Source of the DNA: Siphonodentalium dalli
Taxonomy: Eukaryota > Mollusca > Scaphopoda > Gadilida > Siphonodentaliidae
Assembly (NCBI GenBank): GCA_032622095.1
Contig: CP136067.1
Location: forward strand, 81,804,705 to 81,868,704
Direction of reading: 5' to 3'
DNA length: 64,000 nt
Position 1 is the first letter of the stretch; every line of letters begins with the position of its first letter. The notes beneath the pieces are model-generated. The model had not been told where the DNA came from and ran no database searches. It was given only the letters and a program-made list of their open reading frames with translations. A program made the translations under genes and the position numbers. This document shows positions 6,691 through 58,439 of this stretch, one piece after another.

Positions 6691-7182
6691 GTGATATTTA
6701 TGATTTGTATAAGAACAACATCTGTCTATTATATAATATTCTTTCTGTTTATGGTGGTTTTTGTGGATGTGACTATTTTAAAACCTATACCCACAGGGAA
6801 GTCTGCCTGTAAACCTATACCCACAGGGAAATCTGCCTGTAAACCTATACCCACAGGGAAGTCTGCCTGTAAACCTATACCCACAGGGAAGTCTGCCTGT
6901 AAACCTATACCCACAGGGAAGTCTGCCTGTAAACCTATACCCATAGGGAAGTCTGTCTGTAAACCTATACCCACAGGGAAGTCTGCCTATAAACATATAC
7001 CCACAGGGAAGTCTACCTGTAAACCTATACCCACAGGGAAGTCTGTCTGTAAACCTATACCCACAGGGAAGTCTGCCTGTAAACCTACATGTATACCCAC
7101 AGGGAAGTCTGCCTGTATCTTTAAATGGGAGTTTCAAAGAATGTTTTTTGTCATTATTGAAAGTTCTTCTGGGAAGAGATAG
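6691..7182 (+). CDS. Doubtful ORF made of a 10-residue repeat
   Basis: Open frame of 163 codons. About 30 residues at the start include a hydrophobic run (YYIIFFLFMVVFVDV). It continues as ten or eleven copies of KPIPTGKSAC and ends in unrelated sequence. The 30-base repeat unit is a multiple of three and free of stops in several frames, including two on the minus strand. An open frame is therefore expected by chance. The hydrophobic lead is intriguing for a secreted repeat protein, but nothing else supports expression. Confidence 0.15.
   Translation: MIFMICIRTTSVYYIIFFLFMVVFVDVTILKPIPTGKSACKPIPTGKSACKPIPTGKSACKPIPTGKSACKPIPTGKSACKPIPIGKSVCKPIPTGKSAYKHIPTGKSTCKPIPTGKSVCKPIPTGKSACKPTCIPTGKSACIFKWEFQRMFFVIIESSSGKR
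6781..7116. repeat. 30-bp minisatellite, 11 units
   Basis: Ten exact-length 30-base units start at 6781 and every 30 bases to 7051. An eleventh unit (7081-7116) carries a 6-base insertion that creates ACATGTATAC. The unit core is CCTATACCCACAGGGAAGTC. Units differ by one to three substitutions. There are no spacers, so this is not a CRISPR array. Confidence 0.97.
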
Positions 7183-7238
7183 AACATCTTTGATACTCTT
7201 CCTTTAGAGGTGTGAGCTAAAATTTGCGCCTTGTGGCA

Positions 7239-7662
7239 AGCCTGAATTTAGTGTGTCTGACATTTGCTGAATGAGGTCCTCAGAGGGTAAATATAGAGAT
7301 GCTATCCCACACGGTGGGCTAGCATCACCGAATTCACCCTCTGGGGACCTCATTCTGCTTGGGCCTCATCTTCTGCAAAGTATCTATTGTCTCATATTAA
7401 CATTGTTTTTAGTTACTTTTTCGCTTTTGTTGAGTTTGTATATCCCCTAATTTTCAGAACATAAAATACATAATCGAGGTGACTAATGGGTGAACAACAC
7501 CAACCAACCGAGGAACTTCAATCTGATCCTAGGTCTCCCATAGCATTGAGGCCTAAGCAGAATGAGGTTCCCAGATGATGGTGATGCTAGCCTGCTACGC
7601 AGGAGGGCGTCACTAAATTCACCCTCTGGGGACCTCATTCTGCAAATGACACACATTAAACT
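7239..7662. mobile_element. Family F palindromic element, two blocks
   Basis: Starts with CAAGCCTGAATTTAGTGTGT and contains two palindromic blocks (about 7270-7352 and 7558-7645). Each is built from AGAGGGTGAATTTAGTG-type sequence and its reverse complement CACCCTCTGGGGACCTCATT. The stretch between carries sequence also found next to other family F copies (TCTGCTTGGGCCTCATCTTC). The right end runs into CTGAACTGAACTGAACTG rather than a matching terminus, so this copy is broken. Confidence 0.75.
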
Positions 7663-8606: not shown

Positions 8607-9397
8607 GTGTCAAGTTTCCTTGACATAAATCAGCTAGTGAAATCGGTAGGGATAATACTGGTTTACGTCGAAGTACAGTTGCTTTACTCTTCTATAGCAG
8701 ACTTTAAGCGTAAATCACCTGCTCATCTAAAATCACCAATGACAGTAATAAAATGTCACAATTGTGAAAGGAACCCAGTTAATTCCATATAAAACATTAT
8801 ATTTGATTGAACTCCACTTATAAGAGTTATCAACTGAAAGTGGTAATTTAATGTGAACAATTTATTTTATCACAATGTTTACATAATTTCAAAAGAATAT
8901 AAACTCATTTGACCTCCCGAACTTCGTAACAGTTCAGTTTTTCTCTAGAAGTAAACAAACGGATAAAATGTGAGGTTACTCCTAATTACATGGCATATTC
9001 TTTGCATAATTTAACACTACAGTTAGATTATATTACATCATAATGATCATAAGATATCACTATTTCCGATAAATGTAATCTTTTGTAATGATTTGTATGA
9101 TAATGTTGATTAAAATTGATGAAAAATCCCACCATTGGATCTGGGTGCAAAGTTCGTTATAGAAGAGTAAGGCAACTGTACTTTGACGTAAACCAGAATT
9201 TCCCTAGGTTTATTACCTTTTTCCTCATTTCTGGTTGCGTTTGTGATTGCCTCGGCCATTTTGAATGCGTGATACTCATCAACTCGAAACCACGTGATTC
9301 CCCTCCGTGAGTTGGGGGGGGGGGGGGGGGGGGGGGGTGCTCCCGCTAGGATGGTCAGTCAGTCATTTGGGTAACTCGGGTTTATTATACATGTTAA
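8607..9397. repeat. Noncoding, with a long poly-G run
   Basis: No gene recognised. A run of 24 G residues occupies 9314-9337, ending in TGCTCCC. Two short segments (8655-8715 and 9150-9200) are inverted copies of each other (TTTACGTCGAAGTACAGTTG and CAACTGTACTTTGACGTAAA). They suggest a broken inverted-repeat element of about 550 bases. Confidence 0.6.
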
Positions 9398-9595
9398 CCC
9401 TTTCTATACTATTCATCCACTCAGTTATATAAGTATACATGGGAATGGAGGGATTTTCAGGAAAAATAAGCAGACGATAGATTATAAAAGTACAGATGGA
9501 GGGTAATGTTCAGATATGGTCGTTTGTTCAACTTATTATTATGTGAACATTTCCTAAAGGAACTGCTCGTCCATGAGTATTTAGTATGGAAAGGG
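9398..9595 (+). mobile_element. Family E TTAA element, copy 1
   Basis: A 198-base element flanked by TTAA on both sides (9394-9397 and 9596-9599). It begins CCCTTTCTATACTA and ends TTTAGTATGGAAAGGG. The centre has an inner inverted repeat around TTGTTCAACTTATTAT. TTAA target sites and CCC termini are typical of piggyBac-type elements. It has no coding capacity, so it is nonautonomous. Confidence 0.85.
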
Positions 9596-9979
9596 TTAAG
9601 GAAACACACATACATGTATCTGCTTATAGGGCTTCTCTTGATTGGTGGTTGAAGAAAAAAAAACGGTTTTATTTGTAGATATTTTTTATTGAAAGATATC
9701 CTCTGTTCTTACAACAAAATTATAGGCACATCAAGTCTCATTGTATGCGACAAAGAGTGAGGTTAAAGTTAGGGACTAATCCTCTGTTACAAGAGTGACA
9801 TATAAAGATAGGAACATTATCCTCTGTGTTACATTATTCTTGGAGGTTTTTTAGTTACGAGCTTGCTACTGTGCATGGTTACCTGTGACTTGTAACTTGT
9901 ATTGGTATGTCTGAAATCAATGTACCATACATACACGTATATAGTTTGCTGATGATGAAAAATCTATACTGTTTATGGT

Positions 9980-13411: not shown

Positions 13412-13562
13412 CAAGCCTTGAAATAGTGTGTCTGTCATTTGCAGAATGAGGTCCCCAGAGGGTGAATTTGGTGATTCTAGCCCGCTATGCGGGGTAGCAT
13501 CACTAAATTCACCCTCTGGGGACCTCATTCTGCAAATGACAGACACACTATTTCAAGGCTTG
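13412..13562. mobile_element. Family F palindrome with 8-bp target duplication
   Basis: Near-perfect 151-base palindrome centred at 13487 in CCCGCTATGCGGG. The arms start CAAGCCTTGAAATAGTGTGT. The same 8 bases, ATCAGCAA, flank it on both sides (13404-13411 and 13563-13570). A flanking duplication of 8 bases is the hallmark of hAT-superfamily transposition, so this is best read as a hAT-type MITE. The near identity of the arms suggests a young copy. Confidence 0.9.
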
Positions 13563-16495: not shown

Positions 16496-16583
16496 GTGTA
16501 CTTGTACACTGTATCTTGTGGCTTGTGGCTGGTAATATAGCCTGGTATGCTATCTAATATATATATGTTCTGATCCTGATATA

Positions 16584-16800
16584 CAGTAATGCCCTAATTA
16601 ATTGACCCCTTAACCACAGCATAATTATGGATAACTTTTCAGGATTTAGTCGGAAATATGGCTTGTTGCCATTCATCGGAAAGCTCTCCACGAGAGCTTT
16701 CCGTTGAATGGCAACAAGCCATATTTCCGACTAAATCCTGAAAAGTTACCCATAATTCTGCTGTGGTTATTAAAGGGGTCGATTATTTAGGGCATTACTG
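16584..16800. mobile_element. Family A TA-MITE, copy 4
   Basis: Complete 217-base element with TA on both sides. It runs from CAGTAATGCCCTAATTAATT to ATTATTTAGGGCATTACTG. It carries the marker differences CCGTTGAATGG and GGTTATTAAAGGGG. The copy at 25698-25914 has the same markers in inverted orientation, showing that these two copies share a recent common origin. Confidence 0.92.
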
Positions 16801-16964
16801 TACATTGTAGTGTTATATGAATGGTAGAATTCATAGGAGAAAACTTTTTAAGACCTTTATATGACATGCAGACTCTTTGAAAAGACTATGATAATCTCCT
16901 CAGATTTACGTCTCGATCTCTCATATAGATTTCTTTTCTGTATTGTTGCGATTTCCTCTATTTC
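16801..16964 (-). repeat. 164-bp inverted duplicate of 25534-25697
   Basis: Read on the minus strand this segment matches 25534-25697 with a single mismatch (CGCAACAATACAG versus CGCATCAATACAG). Together with the adjoining family A copy the duplicated block is 381 bases. Confidence 0.92.
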
Positions 16965-19290: not shown

Positions 19291-19296
19291 CTTTAA

Positions 19297-19688
19297 CCCT
19301 TTACCCAACAAACCGGCCAAAACCGGCCAAATAAAGCTTCAACAGCCTAAAATATCTTCGGTCTGTCTCAATAGAACCATACAAATATGGATATCATTGG
19401 AACCGGCTCCTTGACCACATTGTGATAGTTACAGTTATACCCTGTGCCAATGCATTCTCTTATATATGCGAGTCGACCATAGGTCGCCTCGCATATATAA
19501 GAGAATGCATTGGCCTAAAAAAAATCTTTTTTTAACACTTTTTACCATTTTTTCTTACATTCTTTAACAATTTTATAATTTTTAATGTGTTAAGCCAATG
19601 CATTCTCTTATATATGCGAGGCGACCTATGGTCGACTCGCATATATAAGAGAATGCATTGGCACAGGGCCCTTCTGTTGGGTAAAGGG
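19297..19688 (+). mobile_element. Family C TTAA element with two hairpin modules, copy 1
   Basis: TTAA precedes (19293-19296) and follows (19689-19692). It begins CCCTTTACCCAACAAACCGG and ends TGTTGGGTAAAGGG. It contains two hairpin modules in opposite order (about 19449-19514 and 19594-19660), each built on CCAATGCATTCTCTTATATA and its inverse. Between them is a T-rich spacer. It is a nearly identical inverted copy of 49691-50072, differing by a 10-base tandem repeat of AACCGGCCAA and a few substitutions. Confidence 0.92.
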
Positions 19689-20171
19689 TTAAATATGATC
19701 GTGAAATAATAATGACTGGAGAAGAACTGCATTTTTCTTGTTTCCTGTGAACATTAGCTCAAGGGACTCTAAAATCACACATTGATTAACTCGATATCGA
19801 GCCAATACCAGAGACGCCAGTAGTGCCGGCAGGCGTCAAATTCATATTGTTGTGTTGATAGTGATGATAACTCAAACACTCACCATAAGACAACTGACTC
19901 CCAAAGTATTAGAACTACCAACCTCAACAAGAGGCCACATATAATTTAAATTTCATTAAATATTTAAGAAATAATTCTTGTTTCTGTTCTGTTTATGTAG
20001 TTATAACCAAAAAGGTTGACAACAAATTCATTAACGTGTGTAGCACATTGTAAATGTAGTAAAGTTGTCTTTAAACTTTTCAGTTGTAGTTTCACTCATA
20101 TACTTTAATCTGAACAATTTCTTAAAATTTAATCCCACTATTGGTTATAAACGTCTTCTTTCCCCAATATA

Positions 20172-21302: not shown

Positions 21303-21365
21303 CTGTAAAATATAAAGTTTGTATTATACCAGCTGAACAGGCCAATCTAGTTCAATGACAATCAA

Positions 21366-21565
21366 CCCTTTCATGACGGGAGCTGTGCTGGTGCAGCATT
21401 AAGGATCCTGTGCCAGTGCATTCTCTTATATAAGAGAATGCACTGGCTTACAAGGTTATGGTTAGGCCAATGAATTCTCTTATATATGGGAGACTCGCAT
21501 ATATAAGAGAATGCATTGCCACAGGGTTTTTGCTAAATTTCGGGAAGCTCCTGTCAATGGAAGGG
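21366..21565. mobile_element. Family B TTAA hairpin element, copy 1
   Basis: Starts CCCTTTCATGACGGGAGCTG and ends CAATGGAAGGG before TTAA. It carries two hairpin modules (GTGCATTCTCTTATATAAG and its relatives), here with the first loop deleted. The left TTAA has changed to TCAA. Confidence 0.85.
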
Positions 21566-21689
21566 TTAAAAATATCTTTGTTTGCAGTCACCCTACCATC
21601 ATTATTCTATGTGGGTAGATAGGTAGGGGAAAACTAAATTGTTTTTGGAAGGCTGTATGTATATAAATACACCAGCCTATATGTTTGAA

Positions 21690-25533: not shown

Positions 25534-25697
25534 GAAATAGAGGAAATCGCATCAATACAGAAAAGAAATCTATATGAGAGATCGAGACGTAAATCTGAGG
25601 AGATTATCATAGTCTTTTCAAAGAGTCTGCATGTCATATAAAGGTCTTAAAAAGTTTTCTCCTATGAATTCTACCATTCATATAACACTACAATGTA
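25534..25697 (+). repeat. 164-bp segment duplicated inverted at 16801-16964
   Basis: Single mismatch against the reverse complement of 16801-16964. It sits between a half and a complete family A element. No gene or RNA was recognised in it. Confidence 0.92.
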
Positions 25698-25914
25698 CAG
25701 TAATGCCCTAAATAATCGACCCCTTTAATAACCACAGCAGAATTATGGGTAACTTTTCAGGATTTAGTCGGAAATATGGCTTGTTGCCATTCAACGGAAA
25801 GCTCTCGTGGAGAGCTTTCCGATGAATGGCAACAAGCCATATTTCCGACTAAATCCTGAAAAGTTACCCATAATTCTGCTTTGGTTAAGAGGTCGATTAA
25901 TTAGAGCATTACTG
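25698..25914. mobile_element. Family A TA-MITE, copy 9
   Basis: Complete 217-base element flanked by TA. It carries the markers CCATTCAACGG and CCTTTAATAACC shared, inverted, with 16584-16800. Confidence 0.92.
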
Positions 25915-26504
25915 TACATGTATCATGTCACAATATCTAGAGATATGACTGTAGCTTCTACAGTAAAGTGAATCAGTTATTACTGCAGTATAATATCTGC
26001 ATGTTCAATGTTACCATTTGTGGACAGAGATGATTCATTATGATAATGATTCCAAGCTTGGACTTGAAAGTTTTCTTGCGGAAAGATGAATAAAAGATGA
26101 AGGTTTTACCGGCGGGTGATTACGGAGGTGGGGATTCCTCTATCCGTGCAACTCGATTCATTCTGAGGTGACTCACACTCCATTTTAAGGTTTCTTTCTG
26201 GATTGAGAGCTGAGTGCGACATGCCTGTGCTACATGCCTGATGTCAATTTTGCTGTTAAGTCTGGTTAAGTGGGAGAATATTTAAAATTAATTATAATTA
26301 AGAGACATGGTCAGTAGAGCCCTGCAAATATTTAATATTTAAGATTTGATGTCGATATTGCTGGTATGATTCAGTGTTGACACTCAATTGGACCACTTAT
26401 TTGGATATATTTTAATATCCAATTTATTCCGCTCATTGTCACATTGTTGCGATTTTTGCACATGCTCATCAGGGGTGATGATGAAATGATTCGTCCCAGA
26501 TACC

Positions 26505-26757
26505 TATTCACAAGTATTTTGCAAAAACCCTGTGCTAATATATTCTCTTATATATGCGAGTCCCCTATAGGGAGCTTCACATACATGTATATAAGAGAAT
26601 ACGTTGGCCTAACAATATTTACCTTCACCTTGCAAGCCAATGCATTTTCTTATATATGCAAGGCTCCATATGAGAGACTTGCATATATAAGAGATTGCAC
26701 TGGCATAATGTGTTTAATGCTACACCAGCTCAGCTCCCCTCATGAATGGGCTAAATG
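26505..26757. mobile_element. Family B TTAA hairpin element, copy 2, eroded
   Basis: Two hairpin modules (CTAATATATTCTCTTATATA and GCCAATGCATTTTCTTATAT, with their inverses). They are followed by AATGCTACACCAGCTCAGCT and CTCATGAATGGGCTAAA, a decayed right end. The left terminus is degraded. Confidence 0.75.
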
Positions 26758-26853
26758 CGTTATTGGGACAGATATAGGCCTGTATACATATGTGCCTTAT
26801 TTTTGCAAACTGTACAATTTTGAGTATACATGTAAATATCTTGCTAGTATTAA

Positions 26854-27089
26854 CCCTTTGAGTGCCAGGTCGATTTTTGTATCAACTCATATACCCTGTG
26901 CCAATGCATTCTCTTATATATGCGAGTCGACCATAGGTCGCCTCGCATATATAAGAGAATGCATTGGCCTAACAATTATTATTTTTTTTTTTTTTTTTTT
27001 TACAATTTTAATAATTTATTCTTATATTCTTTAACAGACTTATTTTGTAGGTTTAGGGCCGATGAGATCGGCCCCTGGCACTCAAAGGG
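26854..27089 (+). mobile_element. Family D TTAA element carrying a hairpin module
   Basis: TTAA on both sides (26850-26853, 27090-27093). It begins CCCTTTGAGTGCCAGGTCGA and ends CCTGGCACTCAAAGGG. It is the inverted homologue of 32413-32549 but about 99 bases longer. The extra sequence is one complete hairpin module (CCAATGCATTCTCTTATATA, CGAGTCGACCATAGGTCGCC and the inverse arm) plus an 18-base poly-T. Outside the insert the two copies are nearly identical. Confidence 0.93.
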
Positions 27090-27447
27090 TTAAAGTGTCA
27101 TATGCATGAATTGATTACCCCAGGCAAAATTGTATGATCTTAAGCGATGCAAATTGAAATCAGCTCACCAAAGAGATTATATCATTTAATCTTGAGCTGG
27201 ACCTTCACATTATGTGATATACATTATTAAGAAACATGTATTAACTAAGAACTGTATTTAGTACGCATATTACGTTTTCAATGTTATAAAATTTCCCGTC
27301 GGATCAGCTGGTCGGATCTGCAAAAAGTTCCCATGTTTTGAACTGGTGGAACAGGATCTCTATGGGGGTAGCCGTAGTAGAGATTCATGGCATGATTTTC
27401 ACCCCCCCCCCCCCTTTTGCTACTTTATGTGAGATATTTCTATCCTA

Positions 27448-27554
27448 CAGTAATGCTCTAAATAATCGACTCCTTAACGACAGGAGAATTATGGGTAACT
27501 TTTCAGGATTTAGTCGGAAATATGGCTTGTTGCCATTCATTGGAAAGCTCTCAG
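27448..27554 (+). mobile_element. Family A TA-MITE, left half only (copy 10)
   Basis: Starts after TA with CAGTAATGCTCTAAATAATC, runs to GGAAAGCTCTCAGTA at the apex, and then stops. The right arm is absent. Confidence 0.85.
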
Positions 27555-30070
27555 TAGTTAGACAGGTTTGGGAATCTCATCTTATGTATGCATTGCTAGT
27601 TCAATTCCAATGCACATCAAACACAGTAGTTTTATAGGGTTTGGTTAAGTTTCGATCACTATCTGTGGCATTAGTAAATATAGATTTGTTATGAGGTCGA
27701 CCATCTTGACGTTGTTTGAGGTCACTATATATTACTTGATAGAGGGGTCGCTCATTCGGGCGGAATTAGTAATTAGAGCAGAGTTTTTAATCTGACTAAT
27801 GATATAGCAGAGAACGAAAATCAATGAACAGTATCGGATAACAGTGGCTGACCGATGTCCAGCACAGAGACAACGACCGCCAATGGGCCTAATATGATCT
27901 CAGTGTGCCGATGACTCGAGGTCACACTTGGATTGTATGGATAATTGTGCATTACGATCTAATTATTTTCTCGTGTATTATGTCCCTGATCAAGTTACAT
28001 GGATTGGTGTATATCCTCGGAGAAAAAAAGAGAAACACAATTGACACAGCAGCTGGTCCTATGGAAATGATTACAGTGATGCTTCTGCCAGATTCTTAGT
28101 ACTCATCCAGGGAACAGTAGCTGGTCTCTTTATCCTATTACTAAGAAATTATATCCAATAAGCAGACTCCTTGGTAAAAGCATTAATAAGTGACATCAAT
28201 ATATCAAATTTGAGTCCTACCAGATTTAAATCTTAGGACATATCCAGTTAACAATAGACCATCTTTTATCAAATTATTAAGAAATTAGGACCAACTAGGC
28301 AGTCTTCTTTGTAAAAATGTTGATACATGTAAATTTTTATTGAATACATATATATCAAATTTAAAGCCATTTAACAATACTAGTAGTATTAGCTAGTGTT
28401 TAATCCTAATACTTAGAATTTAGGCCATGTTGCAGACTCCTTGGGGAAAAATGTTGATAGCTGTCATCAATATATCAAATTTGAGGTCTGTACATTTGAA
28501 GTGGGTCTAGTGTTAATCCAAGGTACCAAAAGCAGTGATGGGCATTTCTGCCATTGCATATACATGCAATTGTGTAGGAAGGGGTATCTCTCCAGACATA
28601 GGGAATAACTCAATCACATTACTGACCCCACCTCAGTTCGCACCTCCCCACTGGTTGAATATATTAAAGTAAAAAAAAGCCAAGTATAATGATAAAAAAT
28701 AACCAAGCACTTAATATGGACTCTTCGACCCCTTACCACTTCCTTGGTGTATATTAATTTTTTACACTTGATTTTTAACCATGTTTTTCTTTTTCAAGTT
28801 TCTAAAGATTTCCGATGTCCACTGAATATAAAATCAAAATATTTAACCGATAAAAAGAAATAATCCTGAATTCCCTCATAGTTCTTCCTGCTAGCACAGC
28901 ATATTATCTGGGCCAATACATGTACATCAAATAAAGGTTAATTATATGCTTCTTAGTAATTTAATTTGAGTCTTCATGATTCTTATTCCGAACACTGATT
29001 CAAATTCAAAATCTGACCCAGTCTGTTGGTGGTTTTAAAGTACCTGCATACTACTAATGAGGGAAACGCATCTTATCTGTGTGTTGTTGGAATGTTGTAA
29101 ATCAGAATGAAACTGCAATCCCTTGGATGTTTTTTTAGCGGGAGCTTGCAGAAGGCTAACCATATCCTGTTCATTATAGATATTGATTCAGCAGAGTTAG
29201 GACCCTTAATTATGGTGCAAAAACTCTGCATGGGAGAGAGCATCGTGATTTACAGCACAGGGTAGATGAAGTCTTCTCTCTGTATGATGATATTAAAATC
29301 TGGAAAGTCGTATCAATGGGCTTGGAATGTTTTTGTTCACTTAGCATGGACAATTGAGGATGTGTATAAAGTTTAACACTTTCTACAAATAGAGGGTGTA
29401 TACTCCACTGGGAGATTTCCCATCGGTTGTCAGAGTCTAATGTGTCATTATGTGTGGTATACAGGATTGTTTAACAATACCATCCTTTGTTAGAAAACTG
29501 ATAAAAGCAGTCGGGGAGGGGGGGGGGGGGTGGAGGGGTGTTATACATGTACATATGAGCCTGTGACAGGGGTGCCAGATGTACAGTGCTCAGGACAAAG
29601 GGGGGGAACTAACCACCATCAGACGGGCTCTGCTCCCAGTGCCAACACATGGCTTTGCATGTTGCCCAATATGTATGCGAACCTTTGTCATGCACTCAAT
29701 AATATATCCAACTTTTACACAAAGATTCGAAGATTGAGTGCAATTCAGGGATATGCTGGATGGCTTTTGCTTCTCTGGGAAGAGTAATCCTCTAGTTAAT
29801 ATTCAATTCTGCTCGGTCAGTTACCTTCTCTTTAGAGTTTAATCGGGCCATGTGATAATCACTTACAATTTACAATGTTACATTTTTATCAAAATCCTGA
29901 GAAATTGTAAGTTCAAAGCATGCTTGTGAGATGTTTTGTCTTACTGCGGCATGAACTTATACACATTATGTTGACAGAAGTGGGTCATCACACATGAAAA
30001 TACTGACCACCCGGTAATGGAATCTGTGTTCGTTTGGCTGCGAACTCCGGCAGCAAATTGTGATAATCAG
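27555..30070. other. Intron with a degenerate tandem repeat
   Basis: No exon recognised. Three diverged units of about 135 bases at 28162-28230, 28298-28370 and 28433-28495 share CAATATATCAAATTTGAG or variants, preceded by AGACTCCTTGG-like words. A G-run lies at 29519-29530. Confidence 0.5.
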
Positions 30071-30131
30071 TGCACTGGCACAGGGGTTCTTTAATGCTGC
30101 ACCAGCACAGCTCCATCATGAAAGTGTTAAA
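30071..30131 (+). mobile_element. Family B right-end fragment
   Basis: The 60 bases read CACTGGCACAGG, TTTAATGCTGCACCAGCACA and then CATCATGAAAGTGTTAAAA. This is the right end of family B without its hairpins. Confidence 0.75.
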
Positions 30132-30447
30132 ATTGACTTGGACTTATTTGCATGATTGTATTCCAAGACCAATTACCAAAGTAACAAAAGGTATACACAG
30201 TGACACATGCATCATAATTATGTTTTTATTATCTTACGTCCCTGCAGCTTTTTACGCTGTAAATCCCCCTCAGGGGTCATGACGTGTGACCTCAGCTGAA
30301 CATTTCAAAGAGTAATAATCTAATTAAATTAAAAGAAGCATTTTACAAGCTGTGATGCAGACAGCACCCAGGGGAACAAAGATGGGACAATGAATGCAGT
30401 CACGACTGCAAACATCTCATCATTTCTGGTTCTGCAAAGTATTTCAC

Positions 30448-30551
30448 GGCCAAATGGATGGCATCAGTGAATGTCCCCAGTCAAGTCATTTGTTCATTTG
30501 CGGCCAAATGGATGGCATCAGTGACGTCCACAGTATAGTCATTTGTTCGTT
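30448..30551 (+). repeat. Tandem duplication, unit about 52 bp
   Basis: GGCCAAATGGATGGCATCAG occurs twice, each time followed by a GTCATTTGTTC word, giving two adjacent units with a few differences. Confidence 0.85.
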
Positions 30552-30560
30552 CGCGCTCTG

Positions 30561-31090
30561 CAATGTTTCTTATGGACTGTTATCATTGCATTGAGGTTGC
30601 ATTCTAATGATTGTTATTTCTGATTTATGGGGGCCCTGGAGCTTCAGTGAGGTCAGATGTCACAAGAATTAAGTGAAACTTGCACTGAGAGGGACAGAGG
30701 TCTTATTAAAGGTGCATTCAGCATTCCAGACCTAGATGTTTTTTCTCTCCAATAAAATCTTATTCATCATCACTATCGGGTTTGTCCCATTGGAAAACAA
30801 ATCTTGGAAACTACAAGATATATATTAAAACTATCATATGCTTATAAATACCTAAGCTTTGCAAAGCTTTCGACCATTTAAATTGATCATCATTGGTGAA
30901 CAAGGGATGTAGAGTAATTTATCTTCTGCAAGCTTTCCTATGAGCTGTTATTATTGCGTTCTGTTGTGGCTGCATTGTGATGATTGTTATTTTCTGATTT
31001 ATGGGGGCCCTGGTGCATCAGATCAGATGTGACGAGACGTCAAAATAACTGCAGATGGTTTTGAGGGACAGAGTTCTTATTAAATGTCAC
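30561..31090 (+). repeat. Diverged duplication, two blocks of about 160 bp
   Basis: The blocks at 30561-30722 and 30940-31090 share TGATTTATGGGGGCCCTGG, the flanking GATGATTGTTATT words, TCAGATGTGACGAG-like sequence and GGGACAGAG followed by TCTTATTAAA, in the same order and orientation. This is an old segmental duplication inside the intron. Confidence 0.7.
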
Positions 31091-31332
31091 CCTTTGTCTT
31101 GATTTAGCCATAAAGTTTACCAGGTCTGATTTCTTTTCTTTATTACTGGTAATTCCAATATTTTGAACACAATGTTTTGGCAATCTTGATATTTATTATT
31201 AAAAGATCAGGGGCATTGTAAAAGTATGTGTAGAGCTTCGGTGATTGGAAATTCATTTTGCGAGTGAATGCCCCCATGCCTATTAATGCAACCCCCACCC
31301 CTTGTTATGTTCTTTCCTTAGATCTTGTTTAA

Positions 31333-31788
31333 TCCTTTCTTTACTAAATGGATTCTCCCACCCGGCTGTAAAAGTATGCATTGTAATGGTCTATTATCCA
31401 TATGGAGGGATGCTCTGGAAATATACACTTTAAGCTGACAACAGATAATACCAGTGAAGAAGTATTCCAACTGATTGGTGAGAGATGATCAGATAATAAG
31501 TTCAACAAACTGCCATTCGTTGAACTTATTATCTGAACATTTCTTAAGGGAACTACCGTAATTTCCTAAATAATTGACTCCTTAACCACAGCATAATTAT
31601 GGGTAACTTTTCAGGATTTAGTCGGAAAAATGGCTTGTTACCATTCACCGGAAAGCTCCCACTAAGAGCTTTCTGATGAATGGCAACAAGCCATATTTCC
31701 GACTAAATCCTGAAAAGTTACCCATAATTCTGCTGTGGTTAAGCAGTCGATTATTTAGGACATTACTGTACTCGTCAATGTGAAAGGG
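31333..31788 (+). mobile_element. Family E TTAA element interrupted by family A
   Basis: TTAA on both sides (31329-31332 and 31789-31792). It is a family E element whose body is split by a family A copy at 31556-31768. The host sequence GGGAACTA resumes as TACTCGTCAATG with the TA dinucleotide duplicated. The central palindrome around TTCAACAAACTGCCATTCGT is well preserved. Confidence 0.92.
31556..31768. mobile_element. Family A TA-MITE nested in family E (copy 11)
   Basis: 213 bases between duplicated TA dinucleotides (31554-31555 and 31769-31770). Comparison with intact family E copies fixes the insertion borders exactly. This shows that TA is the target duplication, as in Tc1/mariner elements. 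Confidence 0.95.
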
Positions 31789-31805
31789 TTAATATATAAA
31801 CTCAC

Positions 31806-31985
31806 CCATATTAGGAACACAACTGCCTTTTTTCCAATCAGATGTGAGGAACTGTGAGTCCATTGGTATCCGTATATAGTCTCGCTCTGAATTATACATG
31901 TACCCAGTCTGCAGATACAGGCCTCGCTCTGGATATATGTTGTATAACGGAGGACTGCATACTAGTTTTGGATGTTTGAAATAAA
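31806..31985 (-). CDS. Orphan GPI-anchored protein gene, exon with SCVPNM
   Basis: Internal exon of 180 bases. The acceptor is TATATTTCTTTCAG and the donor GTGAGT, with one-base overhangs that fit both neighbours. It encodes VYFKHPKLVCSPPLYNIYPE, then LYLQTGYMYNSERDYIRIPM and FLTSDWKKGSCVPNM. Two Cys (in KLVCSPP and KGSCVPN) probably pair with others in the extracellular domain. The exon lies 17 bases from the TTAA of a family E element in the intron. Confidence 0.85.
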
Positions 31986-32240
31986 CTGAAAGAAATATAT
32001 GAAGTGAGTGGTTATGTATATACAATGAAATCACTTGTGAAATAAAAGTAATCATTGTATTGATGTGTTCCGACCTCCCATTTCAAAAATATAAATATAC
32101 TAGTAAATAATGGTATTATTGATATACAATTTTTCATAAGCAGTGAATTTGTACCCATGAAAAGTTTGTTACATATGACATGTAAAGTAATCTTACAAAT
32201 AATAAACTTATTTTTATTGCCAAATTAATTTCTTTCATAC

Positions 32241-32613
32241 TAATTACTCATTGATGAGTGAGTAGTTATCCCTTAGGAAATGTTCTGATAATAAGTTCTT
32301 ATTTGACAATAACTTATTATCTGAACATTTCCCACCAATGCTGGGATTCCTTCTGCACTTTCTATTGTCTGTCATCTGCTAATAATTCCTGCACATCTCT
32401 CAAGATGATTAACTCTTTGAGTGCCAGGGGCCGATCTCATCGGCCCTAAACCTACAAAATAAGTCTGTTAAAGAATATAAGAATAAATTATTAAAATTGT
32501 AAAAAAGGGTATATGGGTTGATACAAAAATCGACCTGGCACTCAAAGGGTTAAACGGCCATTCCAATGTATAATTTTACAACTGAATTGGAGAATCCATT
32601 TGGTAAAGAAAAG
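32241..32613 (-). mobile_element. Family E TTAA element interrupted by family D
   Basis: Reverse orientation. It contains the palindromic core (AATAAGTTCTTATTTGACAA, AACTTATTATCTGAACATTT) and then CAGGATTCC-type sequence. It is broken at 32409 by a family D element, resuming with CGGCCATTCCAATGTATAAT and ending GGTAAAGAAAAGG before TTAA. Confidence 0.88.
32413..32549 (-). mobile_element. Family D TTAA element without hairpin module, nested
   Basis: 137 bases flanked by TTAA (32409-32412, 32550-32553) inside a family E copy. It begins CTCTTTGAGTGCCAGGGGCC and ends CTGGCACTCAAAGGG. In the position where the copy at 26854-27089 carries the hairpin module, this copy simply reads ATATACCCTTTTTT on the minus strand. 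Confidence 0.93.
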
Positions 32614-33747: not shown

Positions 33748-34231
33748 AGTTCAACAAATTTATTTCCGAATATTTCCCACAAATGAAAAAATGGGAATTA
33801 ACAAAAGCATCACTCAAAATAAAGAATAGCCAATTCCAGTATATACTTTTATAATTGTTTGGTAGAAGCCATTCTGACATTAAAGTGATGTTGAACACTC
33901 TGCTAGCATGACTCATAGACTGGGGATTCAAAATAAAGCAGTTAAATTCAAAAATTTGTATATTCATATTGGCAGCAAGCAACTTATATATAAATTAGAT
34001 GCAGTGACTCTTCATTGGAGAAATCATTATCGTTTGTTCATTTGTCCCGAATTACATATTACAATTGTATGTAGTTCTGAAACTGTTTTCTGAAATGGTG
34101 CTATCGGTGTGGAAGAATTTTAGGTTATATTAGCTATGCTTCATTATTTTAGTGGGCAAAGTACCTGGGTTCTCACTCATCAGTTTGATTCACTGAAATA
34201 AGTACGTAAGATGTCTTTATACCCTAATTAA

Positions 34232-34453
34232 CCCTTTCATGATGGGAGCTATGCTGGTGGAACATTAAATATCCTGTGCCAGTGCATTCTACATATATAC
34301 GAGAATGCACTGGCTTGCAAGGTCCAAGTAACTATTGTTTGGCCAATGTATTCTCATTTATATGCAAGGCTCCCTCTGGGAGTCTTGCATATATAGGAGA
34401 ATGCACTGACACAGGTTTTTTGCAAAATTTCAGGAAGCTCCAGTCATGGAAAA
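34232..34453. mobile_element. Family B TTAA hairpin element, copy 4
   Basis: TTAA at both sides. It starts CCCTTTCATGATGGGAGCTA. There are two hairpin modules, the first with a shortened loop (GCATTCTACATATATACGAG) and the second with CAAGGCTCCCTCTGGGAGTC. The right terminus is eroded (GTCATGGAAAATTAATG). Confidence 0.87.
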
Positions 34454-35066
34454 TTAATGAAACTGAATATTAGGGTGTATACCACATTATAGTTTCAAAG
34501 AGAAACTCAGCTCTTGGCCCAGGGAGCCATGACTGTCAGGCTTTCAATCTGAGTGAGCCCTAACTGTCGTAGCGTAAGATATTCAATCTTCCGGTCGAAA
34601 ATCCATTGACTGATCTAATTCAAGACCATATGGCAGGTCTCTGATGCCAGTATATACTTTAGGTCTCTAGGCATATAAATATATGCAAATTAAGGCAGGC
34701 GGCTGACTACACGGTAGTCTAATGATGGATTGAAGCACTGACCGGCCTCACAATAGTTAATAAAATGGATGAAAATTACATGTTGCCTTTGGCACCTATT
34801 ATTATTTACGTACAAAAGGCAGGAAGATTAAGTTAGTGGAAGATTATATGGCTTCGGGCAGAGTTTTTGTAGACGAATCAACTGTCTGTAGGGGTGAAAA
34901 TATCTATATGTGCTGTCACTGAGTCTTTTTCTCGTTAGTTTCCGGTCTTTTTATCATCGCGCCATGTGTGGTTCTGTTTGACTCGACTGTAGACAGCTGT
35001 AGTGTGTGAAATCGGAGGATGACATTGTGTCCATGCATACATAACAAATGTTATATATACAGGGAA

Positions 35067-35200
35067 CAAGCCTGTAAATAGTGTGTCTGTCATTTGCAGA
35101 ATGAGGTCCCCAGAGGGTGAATTTAGCGACGCTATCCCTCACGGTGGGCTAGCATCATTAATTTCACCCTCTGGGAACATTATTCTGCTTGGGCCTCAAC
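35067..35200. mobile_element. Family F palindromic element, copy
   Basis: Starts CAAGCCTGTAAATAGTGTGT, with the core CCCAGAGGGTGAATTTAGCG and inverse CACCCTCTGGGAACATTATT. The right end switches to TCTGCTTGGGCCTCAACTG, the longer family form. Confidence 0.78.
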
Positions 35201-36021
35201 TGATATGGGAGACGGTAAGGGGGCCATAACTTCCAGAACATGACACATTTATGAATCAGATATAAATTGTAAACGACAACATTTTGACTTTCTTTTTTAT
35301 ATACAAGTATAAGATATTTATTTCCATACTGTGGAACACAAATGGCCACTTTATATGCTTTCTCCATCTGCTGTCCCCTGCTTCAGTGGCCCTGCTTATT
35401 ATAAATTATTATAGCAGTGGTCATGCAGGGACATGTGAAGCTGCTATATATGCCGCACTGATTACGGAGTAAAATGTCATTTTGTTTGCTATACTTCCAT
35501 GCTGAATATGGAGGTAACATGTCACACTTTGTGCTATACGTCGTACTAAGTACAGAGGTAAATTGTCACTTGTGAGTATGGACCTTCTTCAGCACATTAG
35601 CAGTCAGCCATTTTCATATCGTAACTCAGAGTTTGGTGCATCAGAACCATTGAATCTCGAAGTTTTAAACAGTGCATGATATTCCACGATTGTGTATAAT
35701 CGTATATATAGCCTTTGCATGGAGTCAGATTTAGGGCTTTTATGATAACCCCATTATAATTTTCCACTGGAAAATGGCATTACTGCTCAGCACACATCAT
35801 TTAGCAGTGAAGAGGTTAATATGCATGATCAAAACAATGACTAGAACTTGGTGATTTCTTTAATGTCTACCTTATGTTATGTTTAATTGTATGTAATATG
35901 TTTACCATGTGAAAAGATAATATTGCACATGCAGAATATGTCGCATCGGCATATCTTGGTCTGAGAGGAAAATTCCATAAAAATATTTGCAGTTGACAGA
36001 AACCATATTTTCCACACATAC

Positions 36022-39899: not shown

Positions 39900-40187
39900 T
39901 ATATTTAACAGAACAGTGTATATAGCCAGTAATTTTGAGATAATCAGTGTACATTATTAGTACGACACCATCAGAAGGGAATTTATGGGGTTTTTTTCTG
40001 CCTTCTGATTATGATTATCATCAGAACATCCTTACACCATTCCAATGTATACCTTTACAACTGAATGTGAGAAACCATTCGTGATTAAAGGGTTAACAGG
40101 CAGTTTCAGATAGTCAAAAGTTACTCCGCTTCCTTTCAGATTGATCTATATGTAAATTTTCCTAATGCCAAATTCGCCATTTAATAA

Positions 40188-40410
40188 CCCTTCTGTGACT
40201 GGAGCTTCCTGAAATTTTGCGAAAACCCTGTGCCAATGCATTCTCTTATATATGAGAGAATACATTGGCCTAACAATATTTCCTTGACCTTGTAAGCCAG
40301 TTTATTTTCTTATATATGTTAGGCTCCCTATGGGAGACTCACATATATAAGAGAAAGCACTGGCACAGGATCTTTAATGCTGCACCAGTACAGCTTCCGT
40401 CATGAAAGGG
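40188..40410. mobile_element. Family B TTAA hairpin element, copy 5
   Basis: Left CCCTTCTGTGACTGGAGCTT, right CGTCATGAAAGGG then TTAA. The first hairpin has lost its loop (CTCTTATATATGAGAG); the second is complete. Confidence 0.87.
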
Positions 40411-41991
40411 TTAAAGATTTTTAATTATCTCAGTATGCACTGTCATATACATGTACATATAGCAGTGAATTGTTTGCTTCAATTCATGGACCTTACTGCA
40501 CTTAAGTCATTTCGAGACATTAATAAAACAAGACTTTCCACTCTGGAGGAAATGGAGTTGTTTGTGTCACTTTTATAAGGGGATAACCAATCTCGTGTAG
40601 GAGATATCTCTGACTGCGCCTGATCTGTAGACAAACATAGTGCCCCCCTCATTTTATTCCGATGTTTACAGAGTCTGGCCCGTTATAAGTTTCCTTCTCC
40701 GTAAATATTTGTCGAGGTCCTCATATGACAGAGCAATAATCGGTGTACGACTGTGTTATTATTGTAGTAATTAAATATTCATTTGATAAAATTATTATTG
40801 TAGTACTTTGTCGTGTCCACCTGCTCATTGAAATGGGCCATTGTTATCATCACCCGTTATCCGTGGCCTCGGTCAACATACAATTCTGTTCATGATGCCT
40901 GAACTTGCTTCCATTTTGAAGGGAAGGAATTTTGAAGATAGGTCAAGTCTCTTTTTTTTGCAAAGAAAATATAATATAAGGATATTTGATAGCAGTACTG
41001 ACCAGTATGTAGATTGTATTGCATGTATCATTGCATGTTAATTATAGTTGACTATACGCTGAGCCGAAAAAGAAACTCTGTGGGCTATCTTTTAGCCGAG
41101 GCAAATTTTAGAGGCTGCTAAAATAATGGGAACCCTGTTGAAAACACAATAATAGAAGAGTTATTGCTAAATTTTACCCATATGAGACATTAATCCACAC
41201 CCAGTGGCACGGGCCAGTGAGGAAGTTGTGAGGCTCATGTATTCAATGGAATCACAGCCATTTAATACATGTTGTTGTATACTACATATTAAATACAAGC
41301 CTGCACTACATTTTGTTGATATTGATGCTAAGAAATGTACATCACCGATCTTCTTTGGGTGATACACTGATCATATCTGGTTATTCATGAGAATTAATTC
41401 ACAATAAAGGTAGTTATAGTATCAATGACGGTCACATCATGGAATGAACTTATCTTGCAGAACAGTGTAGAATAAATACAGAACACAACTTGCATCATAT
41501 TCTCAATCTTTTATCGAACCCATTGTGGACTGCACATATAGTTACATTTCTCCTTGCACCATCCGCAAATCATTCGATAAAAGATTCTCGAGTAAGACAC
41601 GCTTTCTGTTCTGTCTATTTCCAATGGGGCTGGCCCTTTAATAAATAAACGGATATAATCAGCAAATATTTCATCTCGGAACCCTGAAAGATACTTCATA
41701 AGAAGTACTAAATATCTCAATGGAGACCCATTAGCTTTCTTGAAATGGAAAGACGGATATCCCTAGACTATTATAATCATATTAGCCGAACTTCATTAGT
41801 GTGAATTCTGATGTCGGAGGAAATTTCCTGTCATTATCTCAATCTCTATTATGGATGAATCATGCAAGAAGGAGGACAGAACAGACGACAAATCACAAAC
41901 TGATGACAAGCCAGGTGGAATGGAAAGTCAGGACGTAAATTATACTATTGTTGGGTGATGCCTCATTGCACAAGACAACTCCTGCGGTTAA

Positions 41992-42235
41992 CCCTTCGAT
42001 GACGGGAGCTTCCTACAATTTTGTGAAAACTCTGTGCCAATGCATTATCTTATATAAGTGAGTCTTCCATTGGGAGCACATATAAAGAGAATGCATTGGC
42101 CTAACAAAATTTACATTGACCTTGTAAGCCAGTGCATTCTCTCAAATATGAGAGGTTCCCTATGTGAGACTCACATATATAAGAGAGGCACAGGATCTTT
42201 AGTGCTACAGCAGCGCAGCTCCCGTCATGATAGGA
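41992..42235. mobile_element. Family B TTAA hairpin element, copy 6
   Basis: TTAA on both sides. The left end is CCCTTCGATGACGGGAGCTT and the right end GTCATGATAGGA. Both hairpins carry small deletions. Confidence 0.87.
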
Positions 42236-43081
42236 TTAAAGTCATACATGGTTGTCGATCTATTATAATATAAATAAATTAGTTTTTTTTTAAAACAGGA
42301 AAAACTACTATATGGTTTTTAGGATAATATAATACAAAAAAAAATAGTTAAATATTGCTAAGAAAAAAGGTGCCTCCTTTGTGCCGATGATTTTGTATCA
42401 TATTTGTTATAAGATGATTGGACAAGTGTTGTGATTGGTGTGGGCATGCTCGCTGCACATTTATACATAATTGCCAGTATGTGGCCAAAATCAAGTTCTG
42501 TAAAATATAGGAGCTGGAGTACAGTGGAGCTACAAGGCTTAGTGGATGTTCAGTCTCCATAGTGACAGGCTAAAATGCCATTATCAGGAACCGCACCAAT
42601 ATGACCTGCCCTGTGATTTCTACTTACGGCAAACAGAAATAATTTATTTTGTCCTTTTTTTACCCAATCAAATACATAAATATGTCGCAGGTCAATGTTT
42701 ATTGCACAGCTTGATGTGACTTGCAAAAGATACATGTATTCAGAGATAGTTTATGATCAATCAGCCAAAGGAACCCTCGAACATGAAATTGTCATGAAAC
42801 CATACCTCCCTTGCAATTATCTCATATAATACTCAAGACAAAGTATGTGTATCATCTGACCCTGACCAATAAAAGAGACTTAATTTCACCATGTTACATT
42901 TTCTGCTTTGATTCATAATTAGACAAAGTGAATGAGTCCAAGTAATCATGCCCATGAAAAATACATGTCAAATTTATTCTCGTTTGAGTCTAATGAATCT
43001 GATTATCGTACTGATTGGAAGTTAAATAAAATCACAACCTTTTCCATGTTAACATTATTTTATAAGAATGTATAATGAGGA

Positions 43082-49605: not shown

Positions 49606-49690
49606 CAGCTAATAATAAAGAAACAGCGCATGGCATTTATGGCACTTGTAGATTAAAACAAAATTATAAAACCATTTTCTGGTTGTTTAA

Positions 49691-50072
49691 CCCTTTACCC
49701 AACAGAAGGGCCCTGTGCCAATGCATTCTCTTATATATGCGAGTCGACCATAGGTCGCCTCGCATATATAAGAGAATGCATTGGCTTAACACATTAAAAA
49801 TTATAAAATTGTTAAAGAATGTAAGAAAAAATGGTAAAAAGTGTTAAAAAAAGATTTTTTTTAGACCAATGCATTCTCTTATATATGCGAGGCGACCTAT
49901 GGTTGACTCGCATATATAAGAGAATGCATTGGCACAGGGTATAACTATAACCATCACAATGTGGTCAATGAGCCGGTTCCAATGATATCCATATTTGTAT
50001 GGTTTTATTGAGACAGACCGAAGATATTTTAGGCTGTTGAAGCTTTATTTGGCCGGTTTGTTGGGTAAAGGG
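49691..50072 (-). mobile_element. Family C TTAA element with two hairpin modules, copy 2
   Basis: TTAA on both sides. It is a nearly identical reverse complement of 19297-19688, with the same two hairpin modules, the same A/T-rich spacer and the same unique right half (GCCGGTTCCAATGATATCC on this strand). Confidence 0.92.
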
Positions 50073-50884
50073 TTAAGTGTTCAACTTCTCAAAGTTCTCA
50101 ACTACACAAGATGTGCTTTGTTACCAAAATTGGCAATTCTATTGAATACACATGATTTTATGTGAATGAAAATGGAATAAAACTATTTATAAATCTATTC
50201 TCACATTCATTTTACTCTGAATTATAATATTTTAGAAGTCAGTGATTTTGCAGAAATTGATGACTTGAAGAACATTTTTGAAATTTCTTAGTTTATCTGG
50301 GCTCAGGCTATATCATAATAAACTGATCATCTTCAACTGATATTTATGACTAGATATATTGACTGAGATACCATAATCTTGCTGTTACGCATGCACCCTA
50401 TTGGTACCAGCCTATAAACTAGTTCCTAACAGTAGGGTGTGTTCACATTTTATCGAGGCAGTAATATATTAGTACTAAGTATCACTAAACTGTCATGTTA
50501 AATCAACTTAAATGAAGATTTACTTGTTATAACACTGGTTGGTGGTAGGATACTAAGAGATCGTAAATGAGAAGTTCTAACAGTATCTAATAGTGTGTAT
50601 CATTCAACACATCAATATAGTAGTATTATAAATCTTAACGCTGGAATTTTATTTTTGTTTTTTTTACTGATCTTTCTTAGCTTAGTGCTAATCAGGTGTT
50701 GCATGCATATGGCACTTGAAGTTTTCTTGGCTAATGGCTGAATTGGCGATAAAAAGGCAGAGGATTTCGCTGGTACATAATTATGGATATTTACAAGTGA
50801 TAAGCCCAGCTATATTCTCGTACTAAAATGAGAAACATTGCATGTTGGTCCCTCCCAACCAGGTAACATGAAGCATAAATTTAA

Positions 50885-51139
50885 CCGTTTCATGGCAAGA
50901 GGTGTGCTGGTGCATCATTTAAGATCCTGTGCCAGTGCATTCTCTTATATATATGAGTCTCCCAAAGGGAGCCTCGCATATAAAATAGAATACACTGGCT
51001 TACAGGATCAAGGTAAATATTGTTAGGCCAATGTATTCTCTTATATATGTGAGGTGCCCTATGTGGGACTCGCATATATAAGAGAATGCATTGGCACAGG
51101 ATTTTCGCAAAATTTCAGAAAGCTCCAGTCATGAAAGGG
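50885..51139. mobile_element. Family B TTAA hairpin element, copy 7
   Basis: TTAA at the left (50881-50884). It has two full hairpins with arms GTGCATTCTCTTATATATAT and CCAATGTATTCTCTTATATA. The right end is GTCATGAAAGGG, and the right TTAA has become TTATAA. Confidence 0.88.
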
Positions 51140-51149
51140 TTATAAAGTA

Positions 51150-53146: not shown

Positions 53147-53150
53147 TTAA

Positions 53151-53375
53151 CCCTTCCATGACTGGAGCTTCATGAACTTTTGCGGGAACCCTGTGCCATA
53201 GGGAGCCTCGCATGTAGAAGAGAATACATTGACCTAACCATATTTATCTTTACCTTGTAAGCCAGTGCATTCTCTTATATATACGAGGCTCCCTATGGGA
53301 GACTCGCATATATAAGAGAATGCACTGGCACAGGATCTTTAAGGCTACACCAGTGCAGCTCCCGTCATGAAAGGG
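53151..53375. mobile_element. Family B TTAA hairpin element, copy 8
   Basis: TTAA on both sides. The first hairpin is reduced to its right arm (ATAGGGAGCCTCGCATGTAG) and the second is complete. It ends CCGTCATGAAAGGG. Confidence 0.88.
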
Positions 53376-53434
53376 TTAATAAAGAAAATATGAAAAAAGT
53401 CAATTTATTTTTTCATGTACAGACGTTTATGTTA

Positions 53435-54283: not shown

Positions 54284-54501
54284 AATTCTTTGTTTCTTTG
54301 GAGATTTTCTTCAAACTCATTTTTTGCTTATTTAATCATATTATTTACTTTATTTCTACTTTTCTTGTATCGTGCAAGTTCGGAACTATTCTTTGTTTTG
54401 TAAATGTTTTGTTGGGTTCAAAATCATTAAGTATTTTTTGTGTAGCTCCATCTAAACTTTCTAGTTATTCCTACATGTAAGGAACTTCTCGGTTCCTTTA
54501 A

Positions 54502-56506
54502 CTCTTTCACTGCCATGCAGCACCACAGAAATACCTGCTACTGCCAAGCATACTGTACATGTACATGTAGTATATTGCTGCTAAAAACATATGGATTGGG
54601 TATTTCTCATTAACTTTTGTATCTTCAGAGCTATTTTCATGAAACTTGGTATGCATATAGGTATTGGCCTGGGGAATCGAATACATTCCCCAGTCCACCA
54701 TTGTCACGAGAGAGATGCCAACATGCGCAAAAATGTAATAAACAATAATTTAATGTTAGCAAAAAATGACTATTACCATTTCTCATTTCATCACAGATAA
54801 AAGGCAAATTACTATATTAATCATTTAAGTAATTAAAACCAATTCCATGTTGCCGAAAGGATGAGACTTTAATATCGATTACATTTTTTTCAGCGGCATA
54901 TTTTGATTTTGATTTTCTGATAGTCAAAGTTGACCAAAGGAGCAATTATAAGCAATAATTAATACCATTTGTGTAAATATTGATAGCAGCCAATATGCAA
55001 CAATAAATATCAATAATTAATCAATAATTAATCAATAACGATCATTTTATGTAATAATAAACTCTTCAAACGGTGTTTGTGTCAACAAATGCGTTTTGTT
55101 TTGTGTTACGTCATTCGTCGTATTTGACTCGGCTGAAGGTTTGGCTATTCAGCCTATTGTGTCGAATTACGAAATCGCGTTTTGAATGTCTCTCTTTTTT
55201 AACGCACGATAAAAAGAGGTCTTCGCACGAACCAAAAATTATAAAACTTCCCAATTATAAGTAAAAATACCCAAATGAAGGAGTCTATGTAGGTCCCGAA
55301 GGAGTCTATAGACTCTTTGATGTAGAGTTCTGATCGGGAAAATGTAGGTCGATCTATTTTTGTCATAACTCTGACGTATTTTGACCTGGGAGAAAAAATT
55401 GAAATCGAGGCTCACAACGAGCATGCCAGTTTTAAATATAGAAACAGGGAATCCCGACAAATGGCGATATCGGCGACAAACAAATAATCGAAAACAACAC
55501 ATAAAATAAACATAGCAAAAACGTGGCACAGTAAAAATGTCAGAACGCCACGAGGTTTTACGTCGTTTTTGGTGACGTCATGGAGTGAAACGGAGTAGGG
55601 TGACACCAACGTACGAATCTGTTTGATCGCCATACTGTTGCGCGAGCGCACGTAAATATAAGAAAATTTCAGTATTTCTCAATAACGTTTGTATTTGTAG
55701 AGATATTTTCATAATAGTTGGTATGTAAGTAGGTATCAGTATTGGGAATAGAAAATATGTTCTAGTCCGCCAGTGTCACATTTCACGTGACCACGATCAT
55801 GTGACCCCAAAACAAGATGGCCGCCATCCCGAAATATAAGATAATGTTAGTTTATTGCTGCTAAATACATATTGATTGGGTATTTCTCAATAACTTTTGT
55901 ATCTGTAAAGGTTCGTGAAACTTGGTGCACAGTTATATATTGGACTTGCTAATTGAAAACACTTCCTAGTCTGCCAGGGTCATGAGACCATGATCACAAA
56001 ACAAGATGGCCACCACACCGAAATATAAGGAAAATTCATTATTTCTCAATAACTTTTGTATCTGCAGAGATATTTTGACGAAATTTGGCATGTAAGTTGG
56101 TGTTAGTATTGAGAACTGAAAACAAGTTAGTATATTTCTGCTAAATACATATATTATTGGGTATTTCGTAATAACTTTTGTATATACAGAGGTATATTCC
56201 TGAAACTTGGTATGCAGGTAGGTATTGGTCTCTGTGAAATGGAAAACACTTCCCATACCAGGAGGGTCACGTGACCGCGACCACTTAATCACAAAACAAG
56301 ATGGCCGACATCCCGAAATATAAAAAAAATAAACCAAGAGTTTCTCGTTACAAAATTGATTTCATCACGTACACTGTTTTCACATAATATTATAGAGTTA
56401 CTTTCCATGGATTGATGTTACGGGACGAAGGTGTCAGGATTCGACTCAAGTCGCGATCGGCAATGTATGGGTAATTCGACTCAAGTCGCGATCGGCAGTG
56501 AAAGAG
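54502..56506. mobile_element. 2.0-kb TTAA element carrying a 170-bp repeat array
   Basis: Flanked by TTAA (54498-54501 and 56507-56510), with inverted 13-base ends CTCTTTCACTGCC and GGCAGTGAAAGAG. The termini resemble family D (CYCTTTNNNTGCC). Inside are about five units near 54594-54715, 55660-55800, 55860-55995, 56035-56130 and 56155-56310. They share TATTTCTCAATAACTTTTGT, GAAACTTGGTATGCA and, in most units, AACAAGATGGCCGCCATCCC or a variant. Before the right end CGACTCAAGTCGCGATCGGC occurs twice. No transposase frame was seen, so it is a large nonautonomous piggyBac-type element. Confidence 0.85.
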
Positions 56507-56563
56507 TTAAGAAACAAAGTTGGCTTCAAGACAATGTCACTTTATTATATATTTGGTACTCAC

Positions 56564-56650: not shown

Positions 56651-56659
56651 CTGGAATAG

Positions 56660-58435: not shown

Positions 58436-58439
58436 TTAA

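Follow-up and report, generated by a model that had tools for sequence, protein, structure and literature searches.

The DNA considered here is a 64,000-nucleotide (nt) stretch of the genome of the scaphopod mollusc Siphonodentalium dalli (GenBank assembly GCA_032622095.1, contig CP136067.1, positions 81,804,705 to 81,868,704 of the forward strand), referred to below as the window, and the subject is a strong hairpin carried within it by three families (B, C and D) of short elements flanked by TTAA. The window has a GC content of 36.5%, is dense in short repeats and contains reverse-transcriptase fragments (RVT_1 in two of the six open reading frames (ORFs) scanned). In an initial annotation of this DNA, two family D copies, one with and one without the hairpin, were taken as a filled and an empty site, and the hairpin was regarded as a passenger that moves or is copied separately from its hosts. 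The features of families D and C that bear on this claim were located as follows, the coordinates of the two D copies taking in their TTAA flanks.

26850 to 27093, plus strand: D1, a family D TTAA-flanked putative miniature inverted-repeat transposable element (MITE) with one hairpin and with inverted TTAACCCTTTGAGTGCCAGG at both ends, placed by alignment to D2
26895 to 26972, plus strand: hairpin module of D1 (CCTGTG, palindrome, CCTAA), of the first-hairpin type and identical to the first hairpin of C1
26897 to 26995, plus strand: 99-base block present in D1 and missing in D2, from the D1-D2 alignment, with a breakpoint ambiguity of 1 nt
32409 to 32553, minus strand: D2, a family D copy without the module, placed by alignment to D1
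19293 to 19692, plus strand: C1, family C, with hairpins at 19441-19518 (first) and 19590-19667 (second, inverted)
19529 to 19569, plus strand: segment of the C spacer matching the D2 interior beside the gap (34/41), from alignment and BLAST
49687 to 50076, minus strand: C2, family C, with hairpins at 49861-49938 (first) and 49712-49789 (second)

The module-free copy of family D

The description of D1 and D2 as nearly identical copies that differ by a block of about 99 bases was confirmed by global alignment, in which 143 of 145 aligned columns were identical and a single 99-base gap was present. The block consists of TGTG, the hairpin, CCTAACAATTATTA and part of a T run, in agreement with its earlier description as hairpin plus poly-T. 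D1 carries one hairpin in all, which is of the first type and stands at the first position. A target duplication, for which a check had been proposed, was not seen at the D2 gap, where the junction is ambiguous by 1 nt. The two copies of family C are identical in 384 of 390 aligned columns and are separated by one further 10-base gap.

The D2 interior was found to match the C spacer just inside the first hairpin of C. In the ungapped part 34 of 41 bases agree, a score reached in none of 1000 dinucleotide shuffles (E 1e-6 by BLAST), and the aligned region begins with the T run, the point at which the D2 gap closes. On the left side, TATACCC precedes the gap or hairpin point in C, D1 and D2, and in the right arm C and D have AGGGCC in common, but neither match is significant by itself (303 and 196 of 1000 shuffles, respectively). 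On this evidence, the hairpin appears to occupy homologous positions in C and D1, and since a single loss requires the fewest events, a deletion of the hairpin is the best account of D2, in preference to the empty site proposed initially.

The hairpin and its hosts

Nine copies of family B and one truncated B end, which was found with a whole-B query, were located in the window.

21362 to 21569, minus strand: B1, both hairpins shortened
26516 to 26754, plus strand: B2, without left end
34228 to 34458, minus strand: B3, degraded left end and shortened second hairpin
40184 to 40414, plus strand: B4, shortened first hairpin
41988 to 42239, plus strand: B5, small deletions in both hairpins
50881 to 51143, minus strand: B6, both hairpins full-length
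53147 to 53379, plus strand: B7, a 30-base stretch gone from the first hairpin
58436 to 58683, plus strand: B8, centre of the first hairpin replaced by a match to its own spacer (18 nt exact)
63343 to 63573, plus strand: B9, both hairpins shortened and right end degraded
30071 to 30130: truncated right end of family B without hairpins

Elements with both ends measure 145 to 400 bp including TTAA. The TTAA is exact at both ends in 7 of the 13 elements (C1, C2, D1, D2, B5, B7 and B8), and TTAA or a variant of it is present at each end of B1, B4, B6 and B9; in B3 the right end shows TTAA and the left one is degraded, whereas B2 lacks the left end and shows CTAA on the right. With the exceptions of B2 and B3, the left end reads CCCTT (11 of 13 elements), while the right ends are the complement of CCCTT or, for instance in D2, B2, B5, B6, B8 and B9, depart from it by one to three changes. 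TTAA together with CC[C/T]T ends is given as the hallmark of piggyBac/TTAA MITEs in the available part of a report on coral elements (PMC2872659). Because the TTAA flanks and the CCCTT-type ends match these hallmarks, the hosts of families B, C and D are classified from their sequence, where the ends are intact, as piggyBac/TTAA-type MITEs. No piggyBac-type transposase turned up in the window, in which only six ORFs were scanned with Pfam and no systematic search was made. The sole look at coding capacity was the list of open frames, in which one chance-like frame spans B2 and part of D1.

Two further pairs of TTAA ends were observed. At 54498-56510 about 2 kb are enclosed by inverted TTAA-CTCTTTCACTGCC ends and may represent a longer piggyBac-type element, the longest listed stop-to-stop frame of which is 131 amino acids. 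At 9394-9599 inverted TTAA-CCCTTTC ends stand about 206 bp apart, and similar ends were noticed near 23869 and 24917; these possibly form a further TTAA family without the hairpin described here.

The hairpin in the D1 block is near-perfect and comprises 32 base pairs. Folding of the module, which had been recommended in the initial annotation, gave -55.4 kcal/mol for a 111-base stretch containing the hairpin, whereas shuffled versions averaged -14.9 (z -13.4) and none of 200 folded as well. The module is built of CCTGTG, the palindrome and then either CCTAA in the first or CTTA in the second hairpin. Directly 3′ of the palindrome, 11 of the 12 first-hairpin units, with D1 counted, have C and all 11 second-hairpin units have T, and this marker is alike in B and C, which fits inherited positions. 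The hairpin is present in 12 elements of the window (nine B, two C and D1); when two hairpin sequences were used as BLAST queries (E up to 1e-3), none was found outside these hosts in the 64 kb. It had been noted correctly that the module recurs in families B and C, the ends of which differ; both families even carry it twice, in mutually inverted orientation, and D1 once. The distance from the element end to the start of the module is 43 bases on one side and 45 on the other in the B consensus, and about 148 and 25 bases in C1.

The hairpins of the B consensus and of C1 are identical at 72 of 78 and 70 of 77 positions (91-92%), the first and second hairpins of C1 differ at 1 of 77 aligned bases, and C1 and D1 share 83 consecutive identical bases across the hairpin. 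For the arms, no alignment better than chance was obtained between B and C, B and D or C and D (196 to 500 of 500 shuffles as good) in comparisons that omit the terminal 14 bases and that are a weak test for the right arm of C, which has only 11 bases. The B spacer does not align with the C spacer either. As judged from these alignments, sharing of the hairpin among B, C and D is modular. In a tree of 23 hairpin units the C and D hairpins were grouped (support 0.97) and the B branches were poorly supported; the tree provides no indication that hairpins passed widely between B and C/D, although old exchange would escape such a tree.

Conservation of the stem was analyzed for 12 of the 23 units, representing 10 distinct rows, by means of shuffles that ignore the relatedness of the units. 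Pairing is held in 89.7% of cells, helped by compensating changes. Cells with both sides changed (12 versus 4.5 in shuffles) and the covariation score (0.143 versus 0.084) were each higher than in any of 500 shuffles, whereas the number of pairs with both-side changes (5 versus 3.1; 49 of 500 shuffles) and of further pair types (12 versus 10.5; 71 of 500 shuffles) was not unusual. The compensating changes fit selection for pairing and equally arm-to-arm copying, for which quasi-palindrome correction is a route.

Within family B, the hairpins seem to be deletion hot spots. The counts were taken for the nine copies from one MAFFT alignment, in which the hairpins make up 52% of the aligned length and the replacement in B8 was entered as a 12-base loss. 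Deletions of at least 7 bp were located in hairpins nine times and elsewhere once (binomial p 0.015), those of at least 3 bp 10 times and twice (p 0.027) and those of any size 11 times and four times (p 0.08), and 196 bases were lost in hairpins versus 14 elsewhere. Of the 10 hairpin deletions of at least 3 bp, all but that of B8, where the centre is replaced, were assessed for microhomology, which summed over these nine to 19 compared with 8.8 for random placement (p 0.013). An 18-nt copy of its own spacer stands in the first hairpin of B8 and has the appearance of a scar left by template switching. Substitutions relative to the B consensus amount to 74 of 992 bases in hairpins and 86 of 1097 outside, with the replaced B8 centre excluded, and the hairpin is not visibly protected after insertion. 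The concentration of long deletions in the hairpins of family B provides independent support for the reading of D2 as a deletion.

Possible loss, transfer and independent movement of the hairpin

Taken together, the hairpin is probably a standing part of related non-autonomous piggyBac/TTAA-type elements and not a separate mobile unit, with D2 as a deletion derivative. The whole element would most likely move by cut-and-paste at TTAA, using a piggyBac-type transposase encoded elsewhere. Subterminal repeats are known for piggyBac, and the hairpins, which are situated towards the element ends, may act as accessory (subterminal) transposition sites. They could also stall replication and become trimmed or rewritten, leading to the shortened forms in family B and most likely to the hairpin-free D2. 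D2 probably lost the hairpin together with its right flank by polymerase slippage or end-joining at the hairpin-forming site, and family D would either have lost a second hairpin or never have had one. The near-identity of the hairpins across families may be due to selection on active source copies, to copying between arms or elements by template switching, or to both.

Several observations weigh against this reading. It is based on two D and two C copies, all within the 64-kb window, and the stretch that is homologous between D and C is T-rich; moreover, the D2 interior also matches positions 56654-56679, outside any studied element, although more weakly (26 bases, E 6e-4). The D2 gap exceeds the hairpin and takes in non-palindromic flanks, whereas the B deletions stay within the hairpin columns; it shows just 1 nt of microhomology, and three of the nine B hairpin deletions tested show none. 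The marker that distinguishes first from second hairpins is one base only. B and C have no detectable likeness outside the hairpins and the ends, which leaves architecture as the basis for deriving B and C/D from a common ancestor. Finally, between C and D the hairpin differs at 0 of 83 bases and the adjoining spacer at 7 of 41 (Fisher p 0.0003, an optimistic value, since the 83 bases are the longest identical run and were chosen for their identity), a contrast for which exchange or selection is needed beyond plain neutral descent.

This contrast would be expected if a C-like element had passed its hairpin to D1 through gene conversion or template switching at short flanks common to both (TATACCC on the left, the T run on the right), D2 then being the older, hairpin-free state. 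Such a transfer is also favoured by the own-spacer copy in B8, which indicates that template switching occurs in these hairpins, and by the two hairpins of C1, which are as similar as if homogenised. However, the stretch between hairpin and T run is CCTAACAATTATTA in D1 and CTAAAAAAAATC in both C1 and C2, so the tract up to the T run was not copied from C1 or C2, and a transfer costs one event more than a single loss. We consider it the less probable course of events, but one to be reckoned with. Doubtful to a greater degree is a general spread of the hairpin as a palindromic cassette (a "satellite of satellites") among TTAA MITE families by template switching at stalled hairpins; if it took place, the ends and the interiors of MITEs would evolve as separate lineages. 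An independently mobile hairpin that inserts into TTAA MITEs, with D2 as an empty site, draws on the sharp edges of the module, since the hairpins of the B consensus and C1 agree closely while arms and spacer fail to align, and on its presence in three hosts. The modular sharing on which the initial annotation relied is real, but no solitary hairpin copies were found in the 64 kb and no target duplication is seen at the sole filled/empty pair, both of which speak against self-movement, and the two inverted copies in B and in C would call for four matched insertions. We regard an autonomous passenger of this type as highly improbable. For C and D, the window points instead to one module-bearing ancestor with the module-free copy as a deletion; for B, such an ancestor is suggested by the two-hairpin plan.

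A role as RNA, for example as microRNA or small interfering RNA precursor, could retain the hairpin and would be compatible with the other readings. The very stable fold and the excess of both-side changes and covariation over the shuffles speak for it, but the two remaining pairing statistics are not unusual in shuffles that take no account of relatedness, Rfam gave no match in the window at gathering scores, inserted B copies have no fewer substitutions in the hairpin than outside, and copying of one arm onto the other would likewise yield compensating changes. Retention by such a role seems quite unlikely. Retroposition of the hairpin with a poly-A tail, to which the T run had drawn attention, was rejected: a simple tail would be expected on the other side of the hairpin, and a T-rich spacer occupies the corresponding position in C. 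A 3′ hairpin of the Helitron type was likewise set aside on its general features, as the hairpins stand in either orientation within TTAA elements and no A-T junction is present at the gap.

Apparent filled/empty pairs of this kind can mislead, since the hairpins seem to be hot spots of deletion. The definition of MITE families usually relies on the ends; the present elements, another case of TTAA MITEs with a shared interior and unshared ends, here with a strong hairpin near one or both ends, suggest that interiors may matter for piggyBac-type mobility or pass between families.

Relatives elsewhere and other repeats of the window

The CMITE families of Acropora corals are, according to the available part of their description, small TTAA-flanked elements that form several families with different terminal repeats, have CCCTT ends in most of these families, are better conserved between families in the interior than at the ends, include an insertion-derived composite (CMITE-IN) and were linked by the authors to piggyBac-like transposons (PMC2872659). 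B, C and D resemble them in the TTAA flanks and CCCTT-type ends, in termini that differ by family and in the greater conservation of the interior, the hairpins being 91-92% identical between the B consensus and C1 and fully identical between C1 and D1 next to unalignable arms. In contrast, CMITEs as described there are about 100 bp long with one shared 75-base interior, whereas in B, C and D, which measure 145 to 400 bp, the shared part is a hairpin of about 67 bases that is present once or as two inverted copies. No similarity to the hairpin was seen in the 60-base CMITE core as published (on the two strands, 209 and 181 of 500 shuffles scored as well), and this core folds far less well (-11.0 kcal/mol for 60 nt versus -55.1 kcal/mol for the 78-nt hairpin module). 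The coral CMITEs are a clear precedent, but B, C and D are not CMITEs by sequence and differ in their strong hairpins, which are paired in B and C.

Conserved domains common to unrelated transposons have been described, for example the V domain in short interspersed nuclear elements (SINEs) and in the MITE MER6, in the part of that report available (PMC6887750). The likeness lies in a conserved interior block in hosts of different make-up; as presented there, however, the V domain joins SINEs and a Mariner-derived MITE, whereas the hosts B, C and D all look like members of one TTAA superfamily. A literature search with the letters of the ends and the hairpin, which did not extend to most subscription papers and repeat databases, returned three unrelated papers on leukaemia and heart cells and no description of the three families. 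Exact patterns of the hairpin arm, the D end and the B arm had 0 matches in viral contigs, and one arm pattern had 0 matches in prokaryote genome contigs. Matches of an 18-mer in 17 viral contigs comprised one arm only in all 17 and were dismissed as chance, as were four records from a phage BLAST with D1, in which a 47-base match fell in the T-rich stretch.

Other repeats were recorded in the window. A tandem array with a 32-base unit is located at 59386-60153, is open in several frames and shows up to 99% identity between shifted copies; it is followed by a second array of 32-33 bases up to about 60328. Another array with a 30-base unit, open on both strands, lies at 6721-7170. Long inverted copies of another palindromic repeat family are present at 16579-16964 and 25534-25919 (98% over 386 bases), with further members at 12049, 15350, 17112, 20210 and 31554. 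A dispersed repeat family with AATGAGGTCCCCAGAGGGTGAATTT-like sequence and a variable inverted centre occurs at 7237-7371, 13412-13546, 35067-35201 and 60821-60955.

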